Assembly (NCBI RefSeq): GCF_004360145.1
Contig: NZ_ML178718.1
Span: 3,886 to 67,885 of the forward strand
Length of the DNA stretch: 64,000 bases
Source: Aliiroseovarius marinus
GTDB taxonomy: Bacteria > Pseudomonadota > Alphaproteobacteria > Rhodobacterales > Rhodobacteraceae
Reading direction: 5' to 3'
Shown here: positions 59,794 through 64,000 of the stretch, in pieces
Layout: every line of letters begins with the position of its first letter
Numbering within the stretch: position 1 is the stretch's first letter
Notes under the pieces: generated by a model
Databases searched by the model: none
Seen by the model: the letters and a program-made list of their open reading frames with translations, nothing else
Told to the model about the DNA's origin: nothing
Position numbers and translations under genes: made by a program

Positions 59794-60252
59794 TTATTCG
59801 TCCAGCAATTCTTTCAGCCGGGCCTCTTCATCTTGCGTCAACGCGGCAGCGCCGTCCTTCGATTGCGCACGGCGGCGCAGATAGAGCACACACGACAGCG
59901 CGGCGATCAGGAACAGAACCGGTCCGGTCGCCCAAAGAATCAGGTTCGCACCCGAGCGGTTGGGCTTCATCAGAACGTATTCGCCATAGCGTTCGACGAT
60001 GAAGTCCACGACCTCTTCATTGCTGTCACCTTCGACCAGCCGCTCGCGCACCAGAAGGCGCAGGTCGCGGGCAATCGAGGCGTTGCTTTCGTCAATATTC
60101 TCGCCCCGGCAGACCACGCATTTAAGGTCGGACGAGATATCGCGCGCACGTTCTTCCAGCACCGGGTCTGCCAGCACTTCGTCGGGGTTCACAGCGTAAG
60201 CGGGCGCCGCAAGGCAACCCATCACGGCCAGCGAAGCTATCAGACGTTTCAT
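59794..60252 (-). CDS. ccmH: Cytochrome c-type biogenesis protein CcmH
   Basis: The 152-residue protein has a signal peptide (MKRLIASLAVMGCLAAPAYA), the redox motif KCVVCRGENIDES near residue 39 with two Cys, and one C-terminal membrane helix near residues 105-125. CcmH keeps apocytochrome c cysteines reduced for heme ligation with CcmF. It overlaps the ccmF stop by 4 bp. It corresponds to the CycL/Ccl2-type short form. Confidence 0.93.
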   Translation of the reverse strand: MKRLIASLAVMGCLAAPAYAVNPDEVLADPVLEERARDISSDLKCVVCRGENIDESNASIARDLRLLVRERLVEGDSNEEVVDFIVERYGEYVLMKPNRSGANLILWATGPVLFLIAALSCVLYLRRRAQSKDGAAALTQDEEARLKELLDE

Positions 60253-62219
60253 TCTGCAGGCACCCCTTCCATACGGGTCTTGGCGGCCCCAGCGGCCACG
60301 CGGAAGCGGCGGTCAAACAGGCTGAAGATGCCGCCCAAGGCCATGATGATCGAGCCCGCCCAGATCCAGTTGGCGAAGGGCTTGATGAAGGTGCGCACGG
60401 CCCAACCGCCACCTTCCTGCGGGTCGCCGATCACCACATAGATATCGGTCCAGAAACCGTTCGAGATCGCGGCTTCGGTGGTGGGCATCGCCTGCACCGG
60501 ATAGACGCGTTTTTCGGGGTATAGGACAGCAATTTCGGCATTGTTTTCCGAGACAACGATGGTCGCCATTGTCGAGATATAGTTCGGCCCCTGTTCGCGC
60601 CCAACATGCTCCAACGTGATGTCATATTCGGCCACTTGGAAGGTCTCGCCAATTTGGGCAACGCGGATATCTTCGACCTCCCACGCCATCAGGCCGGAAA
60701 TCCCCATCATGGTGATCCCAAGCCCTGCGTGGGCTGCGAACTTGCCCCAATCGGCCCCCGGCAGTCGGGTCAGACGTGACAGGCGGTTCGACAGCGCGCC
60801 ACGTCCCGTGCGGCTGAAGATGTCCGTCATGGAGCCAGTCACCAGCCAGGTGCCCAAGAACATGCCAATCGGGCCCAAAGCAGACTTGCCCGTCTGCATC
60901 GCCCAGACCAGCGCCAGAACCGCAATCGACAGGATCAGAGCGGGCACCAGTTGTTTCACCACGCGCCCGATCTTGGCGCGTTTCCACGGCAGCATTGCCC
61001 CAATAGGCAGCACAAGCGCCAGCACCACCATGAAGGGCGTGAAGGCGGCCTCGAAGAACGGTGCGCCGACCGAGATCTTGCGGTCAAACGCCTCGCCCAC
61101 CAAGGGCCAGATCGTGCCGACGAAGACGACAAACGAGGACACAGCCAACAGGATATTGTTCACCACCAGCGCGCTTTCACGGCTGACGAAACCGAAGACG
61201 CCCTTGGCTTCCATCGCGCCAGCGCGCGCTGCAAACAGCGTTAACGCTCCGCCGGTGAAGAACAGCAGGATGAACAAGATGAACACGCCGCGCTCGGGGT
61301 CCGAGGCAAAGGCGTGGACAGACGTAATCACGCCTGAGCGGACGATGAACGTCCCGATCAGCGAGAAGCCAAAGGCCAAGATGGCAAGTAGGATGGTCCA
61401 GCTTTTCAGGCTTTCACGTTTCTCGACCACGATGGCCGAATGCAAAAGTGCCGCTGCGAACAGCCATGGCATGAAGGACGCGTTTTCAACGGGATCCCAG
61501 AACCAGAACCCACCCCAGCCCAGCTCGTAATAGGCCCACCAGCTGCCCAGCGCGATGCCGATGGTCAGGAAGACCCACGCGGCCAGCGTCCACGGGCGCA
61601 CCCAGCGGCCCCAAGCGGCGTCGATGCGGCCTTCGATCAGGGCGGCGACCGCGAAGGAAAACGCCATCGAAAGACCCACATAGCCCAGATACAGGAACGG
61701 CGGGTGGAAGGCCAAACCGGGGTCTTGCAACAACGGATTCAGATCCTGCCCATCAAAGGGCGGCTGCGCCAGACGCAGGAACGGGTTCGAGGTGAAGATA
61801 ATAAAGGCCAAAAACGCCACAGCGATCGAGCTTTGCACCGACAACACCCGCGCTTTCAAGGTCCGTGGCAGATTTTGCCCGAACCACGCCGCCGTTGCCC
61901 CAAAGCCTGCGATGATCAGCACCCAAAGCAGCATCGAGCCCTCGTGGTTCCCCCACACGCCCGATATCTTGTAAAGCATCGGCTTGGCAGAATGCGAGTT
62001 CAGCGTGACCAGCCGGACCGAGAAGTCCGAAGTCACAAACGCATAGGTCAGCGCCAGAAATGACGTGGAAATCAACAGGAATTGGATCGTCGCCGCGGGT
62101 ACGGCCATCTCCATCCAGCTGTTCCAGCCCTTATGTGCCCCGATCAGTGGCACGATGGTTTGCACCATGGCCACGCCCAGCGCCAAGATCAGCGCAAAAT
62201 GTCCAAGCTCTGTAATCAT
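60249..62219 (-). CDS. ccmF: Heme lyase CcmF
   Basis: The 656-residue protein has about 14-15 membrane helices and the Trp-rich WWD motif (WAYYELGWGGFWFWDPVENAS). It is the core of the cytochrome c heme lyase with CcmH. CcmE, often adjacent, is not seen here. Its start codon is at 62219 and the next gene upstream is a small membrane protein transcribed in the same direction. Confidence 0.96.
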   Translation of the reverse strand: MITELGHFALILALGVAMVQTIVPLIGAHKGWNSWMEMAVPAATIQFLLISTSFLALTYAFVTSDFSVRLVTLNSHSAKPMLYKISGVWGNHEGSMLLWVLIIAGFGATAAWFGQNLPRTLKARVLSVQSSIAVAFLAFIIFTSNPFLRLAQPPFDGQDLNPLLQDPGLAFHPPFLYLGYVGLSMAFSFAVAALIEGRIDAAWGRWVRPWTLAAWVFLTIGIALGSWWAYYELGWGGFWFWDPVENASFMPWLFAAALLHSAIVVEKRESLKSWTILLAILAFGFSLIGTFIVRSGVITSVHAFASDPERGVFILFILLFFTGGALTLFAARAGAMEAKGVFGFVSRESALVVNNILLAVSSFVVFVGTIWPLVGEAFDRKISVGAPFFEAAFTPFMVVLALVLPIGAMLPWKRAKIGRVVKQLVPALILSIAVLALVWAMQTGKSALGPIGMFLGTWLVTGSMTDIFSRTGRGALSNRLSRLTRLPGADWGKFAAHAGLGITMMGISGLMAWEVEDIRVAQIGETFQVAEYDITLEHVGREQGPNYISTMATIVVSENNAEIAVLYPEKRVYPVQAMPTTEAAISNGFWTDIYVVIGDPQEGGGWAVRTFIKPFANWIWAGSIIMALGGIFSLFDRRFRVAAGAAKTRMEGVPAE

Positions 62220-62307: not shown

Positions 62308-62733
62308 CTACTGAACCAGCAGATAGATCACGGACGAACACATCACGGCCAACAGAACAGGCGCTAGAAACGCCGCCCCATGCAGGCCGAAGGATCGATG
62401 AATCACGCTAAAATGCAGAACCGCCCCCGACAGGCAGACGGCCAAGGGCGCGAAATGCAGCGCACTTGCGGTCATCGCCTCGGGCGCGCCCAAAAGGGCA
62501 TAGATCCACCACCACCCCAGCACCAGACTTGCCCCGCACCAGCTATAGGCCATGCCCAGCGCCAAGGGGGTGGCACGTTGCAGGTAGAGCCACAGGAACG
62601 TCAGCGCGATCATTAGCCCCATCAACGTGATGGCCCCAAAGCCGATCTGGAAAATCGCTTGGTATCCAAAGGCCCAGTACCCGGCCTGAAGCAGAACGGC
62701 CAATATCGCGACGAGAAGAGCTGCTTGTTTCAT
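62308..62733 (-). CDS. Small membrane protein downstream of GTA release genes
   Basis: The 141-residue protein is almost entirely hydrophobic with four helices (residues about 5-25, 30-50, 70-90 and 110-138). It has no motif I recognise. Its start overlaps the stop of a 47-residue coupled gene by 4 bp, tying it to the holin/endolysin cluster. It could be a membrane accessory to lysis or an unrelated neighbour. Confidence 0.6.
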   Translation of the reverse strand: MKQAALLVAILAVLLQAGYWAFGYQAIFQIGFGAITLMGLMIALTFLWLYLQRATPLALGMAYSWCGASLVLGWWWIYALLGAPEAMTASALHFAPLAVCLSGAVLHFSVIHRSFGLHGAAFLAPVLLAVMCSSVIYLLVQ

Positions 62734-62873
62734 TTGTGCAAGATACCTCGGACAACCGCATCGAGTTCCGCGGCTGCTTGTTCGTTTCGTGAAAGTGCTT
62801 TTTGAAAGCGGTCCGCCAAAAGAACGTCCTTGAGCCGCTCTTTGACGCAGAGATACAGGCGCCGGATCATCAT
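62730..62873 (-). CDS. Small coupled protein, 47 residues
   Basis: The 47-residue product (start 62873, overlapping the stop of the upstream 62-residue gene by 4 bp as ATGA) is helical and basic at the start (MMIRRLYLCVKERLKDVLL). No family recognised. ATGA overlaps on both sides support it as a real gene despite its size. Confidence 0.55.
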   Translation of the reverse strand: MMIRRLYLCVKERLKDVLLADRFQKALSRNEQAAAELDAVVRGILHK

Positions 62874-63058
62874 CGCCCCCCGCCCGAAGGCAACCGTTCG
62901 CGGATGATGGTCGTGATCTCGATCAGGATGGACGAGTTCTTGTCCAGCACCGCCCGCGTCGCCTGATCCTTCTGCAAGTCGCGATAGAGCAGATAGAACA
63001 CCAGCAAGACCCACGGGCCATGCTCGGCCACCAGTTTCAGGATCATGTCACTTGCCAT
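62870..63058 (-). CDS. Single-TM small peptide, BhlA/holin-like
   Basis: The 62-residue peptide has one helix (GPWVLLVFYLLYRDLQK, about residues 14-30) followed by a charged amphipathic tail with IIRERLPSGGG. This plan, one N-terminal TM and a short charged coil, is that of BhlA/UviB holin-like peptides. It overlaps the 3TM holin stop by 11 bp. An ATG at 63046 would remove the overlap. I infer a second lysis-related membrane peptide; no direct evidence. Confidence 0.55.
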   Translation of the reverse strand: MASDMILKLVAEHGPWVLLVFYLLYRDLQKDQATRAVLDKNSSILIEITTIIRERLPSGGGR

Positions 63059-63632
63059 TTTGCTGCGCCTTCCAGTCCTTCAGGGCTGCATTGTCGCTGA
63101 CATCCACATTCGCTGGGACGGTTGCCGAGAGCGGACGGATGCCCAACGGAGCAAAGCCTGCGGCGAGAGGCTCGACTTCCTGTGGATCTGCAGACGCACG
63201 CAACTCATTGGCGCGCACCAGCACTTCGGCGATCGAGCGCTGGAACTCTTGCCCTTTCACCTGCTGGCGTGCCCCGAAATAGAAGCTGACAATGGCGCCC
63301 ATCAGCCACCATAGCGGCTCGGGCACCAGTGTGATACCCAACATCCGGTCTGCGAACCAAACCGGGTCCACCATCGCCGCTGCGAACAGTCCTAGCGTCG
63401 ACAGGGCCAAGGCCGGACGCGGTAGGCGATTCAGGGCATCCATGAATCGATCAAACCGACCACGACGCGCATGGGCGAATTCCGCTGCGAACGCCTCGAT
63501 CGCGGCCATCTGCAATTCTGCATCGCGGGCCGAGGCCGCCTCGGCATTCTCGCGAAACACTTCCGCAGTCTCGCGCACCACATTACCGCGCCCGCCGAAC
63601 AGCACGCGGATCACGTCTCCGATCAGCCCCAT
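63048..63632 (-). CDS. GTA-type holin (3TM family)
   Basis: The 194-residue protein starts at the ATG at 63632, overlapping the endolysin stop by 10 bp. An N-terminal MGLIGDVIRVLFGGRGNVV is followed by an amphipathic helix, two hydrophobic segments near residues 80-115 (LALSTLGLFAAAMVDPVWFA and WWLMGAIVSFYFGARQ) and a soluble tail. This is the pattern of the three-TM holins used to release gene transfer agents in Rhodobacter capsulatus. It would let the endolysin reach the wall. Confidence 0.85.
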   Translation of the reverse strand: MGLIGDVIRVLFGGRGNVVRETAEVFRENAEAASARDAELQMAAIEAFAAEFAHARRGRFDRFMDALNRLPRPALALSTLGLFAAAMVDPVWFADRMLGITLVPEPLWWLMGAIVSFYFGARQQVKGQEFQRSIAEVLVRANELRASADPQEVEPLAAGFAPLGIRPLSATVPANVDVSDNAALKDWKAQQNGK

Positions 63633-64000
63633 GCCCGCACCCGTTCCCGGTGGGCCGCATCTGTCAGGTGATAGCGCGGCGCGATGAACTCCTCGGCGCG
63701 TTTGATCCAACCGCCTTTCCCGCCATCCTTACGCCGCGCGTATTTTCTGGACGCCGGGCGACGATCCGCCAGACGATAGTAGTAGTTGCGCCGCTCGATC
63801 CCGTAGGCATCCACCAGATGGTCCGGGGCGGCATTCATCGCGTCAAGCGCAATGCCCAACGTCTGCGGCCCAAGCGCTCCATCTTGCGAGAGGGTGTGCC
63901 CCATCTTGGCCAAAAGCCGCTGCAGAATCCGCACCGCATTGCCGCCTGCGTTGACATACATGTCGAACACGGTGGCCTGCAGCGGCTCGGGCAACTCGTT
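63623..64000 (-). CDS. GTA endolysin, glycoside hydrolase 108-type, C-terminal part (partial)
   Basis: The frame continues past 64000, so only the last 125 or so residues are present; the catalytic Glu of GH108 would lie outside. The LQATVFDMYVNAG and LQRLLAKMGH-LSQDGALGP-T segments belong to the GH108 and PG_binding_3 regions of GTA-type endolysins. The C-terminal part (NYYYRLADRRPASRKYARRK) is basic, as common in peptidoglycan hydrolases. It is followed, with a 10-bp overlap, by the 3TM holin. Confidence 0.85.
   Translation of the reverse strand, partial: NELPEPLQATVFDMYVNAGGNAVRILQRLLAKMGHTLSQDGALGPQTLGIALDAMNAAPDHLVDAYGIERRNYYYRLADRRPASRKYARRKDGGKGGWIKRAEEFIAPRYHLTDAAHRERVRAWG

Follow-up and report, generated by a model that had tools for sequence, protein, structure and literature searches.

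GTAs are released by lysis of the producer cells. In RcGTA, the lysis pair rcc00555/rcc00556 consists of an endolysin and a holin; both genes, or one of them, are named in PMC3423380, PMC8601537, PMC9638019, and PMC6854486, and the cited text of PMC11409702 names rcc00555 only. Putative CtrA half-sites were reported at the RcGTA lysis promoter (PMC9638019). Caulobacter is reported to have no canonical holin-endolysin homologues, in contrast with R. capsulatus (PMC13236601). Among small holin-like peptides, the BhlA/UviB/TpeE family (PF10960; TCDB 1.E.27 per PMC9527704) is said to be frequent in Firmicutes and is described by a T-Q-G box before the membrane helix, a K/R-X-N-X-E-R-E motif after it, and a shared plan of helix and charge; BhlA and TpeE are thought to cluster through their short aromatic helices and thin the membrane in the manner of TatA (PMC9527704). 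In PBSX of B. subtilis, vesicle production needed xhlA, xhlB, and xlyA, matching an earlier report on lysis (PMC5589764).

The locus studied here lies at the end of a window, by which we mean the whole 64,000-nucleotide stretch of DNA that was analysed. Like the RcGTA pair, it holds an endolysin and a holin; the RcGTA pair is by published description two genes, whereas here three more overlapping genes follow the holin. All genes are on the minus strand, in the order endolysin, holin, peptide A, peptide B, ORF4, ccmF, and then ccmH. The endolysin (63623..64000) is present as its C-terminal 125 aa, the gene continuing beyond the window end; this part matches PG_binding_3 (2e-20), a PHROG endolysin (3.6e-11), and the NCBIfam holin-associated N-acetylmuramidase NF040573 (3.2e-64, 216 bits against a cut-off of 240, for a protein of which the window holds only a part). 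The holin (63048..63632, 194 aa) matches PF11351, GTA_holin_3TM, at 1.4e-28, a family present in 251/295 genomes of the window's family. Peptide A, the feature under study (62870..63058), starts with ATG and spans 62 codons. Peptide B (62730..62873, 47 aa) is a predicted cationic amphipathic single helix, and ORF4 (62308..62733, 141 aa) is very hydrophobic, with about four membrane helices by eye. The flanking frame (60249..62219) we take from its sequence to be ccmF, a cytochrome c maturation gene, and the next presumably to be ccmH; ccmF is not thought to be a member of the module. Overlaps are 10 nt between endolysin and holin, 11 nt between holin and A, and 4 nt each between A and B and between B and ORF4.

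The window's own genome also encodes a GTA_TIM protein (5.5e-153), a marker of RcGTA-type clusters, so an RcGTA-type cluster is likely there, as judged by this one marker family. Peptide A thus sits beside genes of the GTA type, an endolysin and a 3TM holin, and its genome carries a marker of RcGTA-type clusters. A search of the same genome with the rcc01685-family model gave 0 matches, and the controls were likewise silent. A search of 70 selected genomes for R. capsulatus by a primer sequence from the literature also gave no match.

We then compared peptide A with the BhlA plan, which the sequence-only reading had recognised in a 62-residue frame with an N-terminal membrane helix and a charged tail. 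Charges, structure prediction, and profile alignment all agree with that description. The AlphaFold2 model (mean pLDDT 73) has a helix at residues 2-13, a break at G14-P15, and a second helix at 16-55, so that peptide A is predicted to form one short membrane helix following the Gly-Pro break and then a long charged helix. Over 68 aligned relatives, the median net charge is -1 at residues 1-14 and +2 from residue 26 onward. The membrane helix is short and aromatic (G-P-W, then V-F-x-L-L). Peptide A therefore follows the BhlA plan: a short membrane helix near the N-terminus, negative charge at the predicted outer end, positive charge at the predicted inner end, and a helical tail. Neither the tail nor the N-terminal stretch was amphipathic beyond column shuffles (141/500 and 76/500 shuffles equally high, respectively), which counts against a simple TatA-like surface helix.

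To Holin_BhlA (PF10960), the window's peptide alone scores 15.2 bits, under the Pfam gathering score of 22.6; across the A family, 23/33 members reach E<=1 with this model, the strongest at 9.2e-4 (an estimated 19.6 bits or so), and any other Pfam family listed is matched by one A member alone. PHROG 2429 (“bacteriocin production or immunity”) matches 7/33 members (best 1.4e-4), and four further PHROGs match 1-4 of the 33 more weakly. We aligned the A profile by hhalign with 32 phage BhlA sequences and found that columns 1-63 matched columns 1-70, i.e., the full length (E 2.5e-6, probability 88.8, score 33.2). For comparison, the highest score among 40 shuffles of the A columns was 16.5, and A reversed gave 18.6. 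The phage set was gathered with a consensus pattern from PMC9527704 (80 of at least 120 loci used, giving 59 proteins, 32 distinct); since a QGPFA-type motif was the selection criterion, uniformity of the Gly-Pro stretch is built into the set. Neither the Pfam nor the PHROG matches depend on this motif. The proposed kinship with holin families thus held at the level of full-length profiles and did not hold for the single sequence, which stays below the family cut-off.

Peptide A resembles BhlA/UviB/TpeE in size, in the helix behind Gly-Pro, in aromatic positions, in the charged helical tail, and along the full-length profile alignment; it is unlike them in a helix shortened by R26-D27 and in its motifs. 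In place of T-Q-G, the A family mostly has x-E/D-H-G, with a few TEQG, SEQG, or GEQG, and after the helix it has R-D-x-x-K-D-x-A-T-R rather than K/R-X-N-X-E-R-E, so that peptide A carries neither of the two motifs that mark BhlA. Because of these changed motifs we name it BhlA-type and divergent: as judged by profile, it is a distant homologue of phage BhlA and no plain member of the family. The family is described as frequent in Firmicutes (PMC9527704), whereas peptide A belongs to Rhodobacteraceae GTA loci that also carry B and ORF4. An assignment to XhlA (PF10779) was rejected, with no XhlA match for A. A phage origin of peptide A itself was also rejected: no A relative was confirmed among 44 pattern matches in viral contigs, and none was found in 50,697 phage records.

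To characterize where peptide A occurs, we searched 295 family genomes, one per genus, with a profile built from six sequences and found A in 31 (E<=1e-3). In an order sample it was present in 12/196 genomes, every one in the window's family, and in a class sample of 240 it was present in the window's own genome only. As far as sampled, peptide A is limited to part of one family, the Rhodobacteraceae, where it is conserved in certain marine members. Carriers include culture-collection strains of Celeribacter, Maritimibacter, and Pacificibacter. A scan of genome contigs found 119 stretches encoding A relatives, of which the best 80 were retained; 80/80 of these re-match the A profile. At one locus, L090, the A frame ends at a stop after 39 residues.

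Peptide A adjoins the holin in 28/30 family-genome loci fetched and in 76/80 contig-scan loci, where adjacency means an A start within 200 nt of the holin end, itself taken as the first stop past the holin match. The two sets share genomes, with 98 distinct loci among the 110. The 31st A genome, G019, has a fragment at a contig start only and falls outside the 30 loci. Contig ends cut three of the exceptions (L033, L113, and L123), the first stop lies 232 and 217 nt upstream in two others (L119 and L137), and the holin is absent from the last (L056, in genome G048). In this last locus there is no endolysin or holin between ccmE and A, and A, B, ORF4, and ccmF are retained. The overlap with the 3TM holin gene pointed out by the sequence-only reading, 11 nt in the window, recurs widely: among 104 A loci beside the holin, 100 overlap it by 4, 8, or 11 nt, most often by 11 nt (18 family-genome and 54 contig-scan loci). 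Downstream, ccmF is conserved in 76/80 contig-scan A loci. The expected synteny with GTA holins is accordingly borne out in nearly all loci with A and does not extend to the family at large: peptide A is absent from 264/295 genomes, and because most family genomes lack it, it is not necessary for GTA release generally.

We next compared constraint across the genes by pooling pN/pS over 15 related loci. With synonymous sites near saturation, so that the rank order alone is firm, peptide A had the lowest value (0.078), followed by the endolysin (0.243), ORF4 (0.268), the holin (0.356), the B core (0.358), and the stretch preceding the B core (0.809). The low pN/pS, the recurrence in 31/295 genomes, and the further relatives rule out a chance open reading frame; peptide A is a conserved, constrained protein.

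Upstream of the endolysin there is a conserved TTAA(C) half-site; the window's own promoter lies beyond position 64000. On 155 distinct upstreams, TTAA was present 80 to 35 nt before the inferred endolysin start in 92/92 A loci, 8/8 loci with an XhlA-type peptide behind the holin, and 47/55 others, against a background of 1-5/155 in 25-nt bins more than 100 nt upstream. A full CtrA site (TTAA-N7-TTAA) was found in 0/163 loci and was rejected, the half-site alone being present. This pattern suggests GTA-type control of the whole chain from endolysin to ORF4.

A second small frame, peptide B, stands behind A in nearly every locus. Peptide B was first picked by a regular expression and then tested by a whole-genome profile search; it has the core L..A..RN..AA..LD.AVREVL and a cationic N-terminal stretch. 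B was found in 29/295 family genomes, all within the 31 A genomes (G058 and G170 are without B), and since the profile was built from A loci, the absence of B outside A genomes is the informative part of this count. An extra weak match in G168 falls inside an unrelated 770-codon frame. The predicted model is one helix (pLDDT 86), amphipathic beyond column shuffles both in the core (2/500 equally high) and in the N part (8/500). ORF4 was found in 24/295 family genomes, again all within the 31 A genomes, in 68/80 contig-scan A loci, and in 0/65 sampled holin loci without A. Searches of Pfam and NCBIfam gave no match for B, and for ORF4 a single chance-level Pfam match (E 0.76) and none in NCBIfam. 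One genome, G007, has the gene order A-ORF4-B. A variant of B that lacks the N-terminal helix and is extended at the C-terminus was seen at L044 (=L102), L046 (=L116), L050, L110, L121, and L133, and all six distinct loci are without ORF4. Full-length B without ORF4 was seen at L099, L130, L134, L135, and L138.

We also considered B as a copy of the A tail. The best profile alignment pairs A columns 21-65 with B, N to N and in the expected register (score 13.1, at a marginal E of 0.058); 28 usable column shuffles scored at most 9.9 and reversed B 7.4, with two more shuffles scoring absurdly (127 and 130). The A tail alone aligned in another register of 10 columns (E 0.0052), and against the phage BhlA profile B gave no match (E 0.43). 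With its marginal E and second register, the copy was rejected as an account of B and kept as a hint.

To see what stands behind the holin elsewhere, we examined 71 holin loci from 71 genomes (the window, the 30 best-scoring, and 40 listed, with A genomes skipped in the last 40). The endolysin is upstream of the holin in 71/71 of these Rhodobacteraceae loci, and by A and XhlA profiles the place behind the holin held A in 6, an XhlA-type peptide in 8, and neither in 57. Across the 295 family genomes, XhlA (PF10779) was matched in 32, 14 of them exceeding the curated cut-off. The XhlA-type peptide adjoins the holin in 23 genomes (13 by coordinates, 10 by locus reading) and lies away from it in 9, as far as the contigs tell. 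Loci with such a peptide behind the GTA holin include L006, L014, L160, L162, L165, L188, L189, and L199, among others, and the peptides examined mostly overlap the holin stop. The one at L014 also matches NF048001, the rcc01685 GTA head formation family, weakly (E 0.035, far under the cut-off). XhlA-type peptides thus occupy, in other genera, the same place as A behind the same 3TM holin, and are likewise small one-helix lysis peptides; they are built the opposite way, with the charged helix first and the membrane helix last, and have no sequence match to A. Both types together behind one holin were not seen among the family genomes; G042 carries both on separate contigs. A further type of peptide was seen at L177, small and hydrophobic with about two membrane helices, overlapping the holin and by eye neither BhlA- nor XhlA-like.

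On a FastTree tree of endolysin plus holin (157 rows), A, XhlA, and neither were scattered, with 11 changes for the three labels. A single clade of A loci was rejected on the best tree, which needs 10 A-label changes; on well-supported branches alone, however, no more than 2 changes per label are required, and the tree over-represents A rows. The scatter is consistent with repeated loss and replacement. A second holin type (about T-P-N-A-T-R near the start; L003, L004, L005, L007, L013, and others) makes up a separate branch of 22 rows, most of which have no ccmF downstream.

From the homology, synteny, and constraint shown above we infer the function of peptide A: as a divergent holin-like peptide of the BhlA type, it probably plays an accessory part in GTA release. 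By analogy with BhlA/TpeE and the PBSX precedent, A would aid the 3TM holin in opening the membrane. Its N-terminus would face outward and its charged tail inward; clustered short aromatic helices would thin the inner membrane, as proposed for TpeE/BhlA, and the 3TM holin could then open it to the muramidase at a lower threshold. The gene overlap may couple the output of A to that of the holin. B and ORF4 are best read as partners of A in GTA release: we would guess that B, as a cationic amphipathic helix, acts on the A tail at the inner membrane face as a timer or partner, and that ORF4 is a third membrane component. Further observations that count for an accessory holin are that B and ORF4 are confined to A genomes and that an XhlA-type peptide stands in the same place in 23 other genomes, taken together with the xhlA requirement in PBSX. 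Against it count that most genera have neither A nor XhlA, that G048 keeps A-B-ORF4 without endolysin and holin at this place, and that A combines sub-cut-off single sequences with a lost T-Q-G. A more elaborate account, which we regard as tentative and on balance doubtful, is that A, B, and ORF4 form a dedicated, undescribed three-part membrane module that times or shapes the opening of the GTA producer and has been repeatedly lost or swapped for an XhlA-type peptide. Here A would be a BhlA-derived membrane-thinning peptide, B a tail mimic, holding A or nucleating it at the membrane face, and ORF4 a membrane platform; the endolysin-holin core would stay constant while the release machinery behind it turns over.

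Small membrane proteins next to holins often have a regulatory role, and peptide A could be an antiholin that joins the 3TM holin in the membrane and makes it open later, B and ORF4 adjusting by how much. The overlap may keep amounts of A and holin matched, as such a role would need, and a small frame between holin and endolysin of R. capsulatus phages was left as holin or antiholin (PMC8601537). The homologues BhlA and TpeE are, however, described as holins or membrane-destabilising peptides and not as inhibitors (PMC9527704), and we consider an inhibitory role unlikely. Less likely again is that A and B are a small membrane toxin and its partner, kept as a stabilised addiction or anti-phage unit behind the holin. 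The pairing of a one-helix peptide with a small gene for a partner, the co-occurrence of A and B, and the likening of small holins to type I toxins (PMC9527704) would agree with this; one fixed position in nearly all loci, the strong constraint, and the lack of any relative among the viral pattern matches and phage records searched make it very improbable.

The surroundings of the locus raise another explanation, in which A, B, and ORF4 have their role in cytochrome c maturation and not in GTA release. CcmD is also a small one-helix protein, 68/80 contig-scan A loci are flanked by ccmE on the upstream side and ccmF on the downstream side, and G048 retains A-B-ORF4 between ccmE and ccmF where endolysin and holin are lost. 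Yet 39/65 holin loci without A have the same ccmE and ccmF neighbours, and at L098 and L140, with about 5 kb of downstream sequence, A-B-ORF4 follows the holin with no ccmF. Peptide A moreover starts within the holin gene and matches BhlA but no Ccm family, and XhlA-type peptides take up the same place behind the holin in other genomes. A role in maturation is therefore improbable, and the position between ccmE and ccmF would be historical.

A small holin-like peptide beside a holin is already known. Within the open-licence papers searched, where no title or abstract opening listed describes B, ORF4, or a peptide of BhlA or XhlA type at the lysis genes of a GTA, the presence of A in a GTA operon, its divergent form, and its companions B and ORF4 appear to be new. 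The sequence-only reading had proposed one second small peptide for GTA release; A does stand beside the holin, and it is not alone, being accompanied by B and ORF4 and answered elsewhere by XhlA-type peptides. On the accessory-holin reading of peptide A, BhlA-type peptides would have a place in a phage element domesticated by Gram-negative bacteria. The gene chain also brings to light a new putative partner, peptide B, found solely alongside A. Celeribacter, Maritimibacter, and Pacificibacter are named genera in which the role of A in release can be tested. GTA release here probably involves more components than the endolysin and holin described so far, and the alternation of BhlA- and XhlA-type peptides in one place behind the holin suggests that an accessory membrane peptide recurs in the release machinery of many Rhodobacteraceae.
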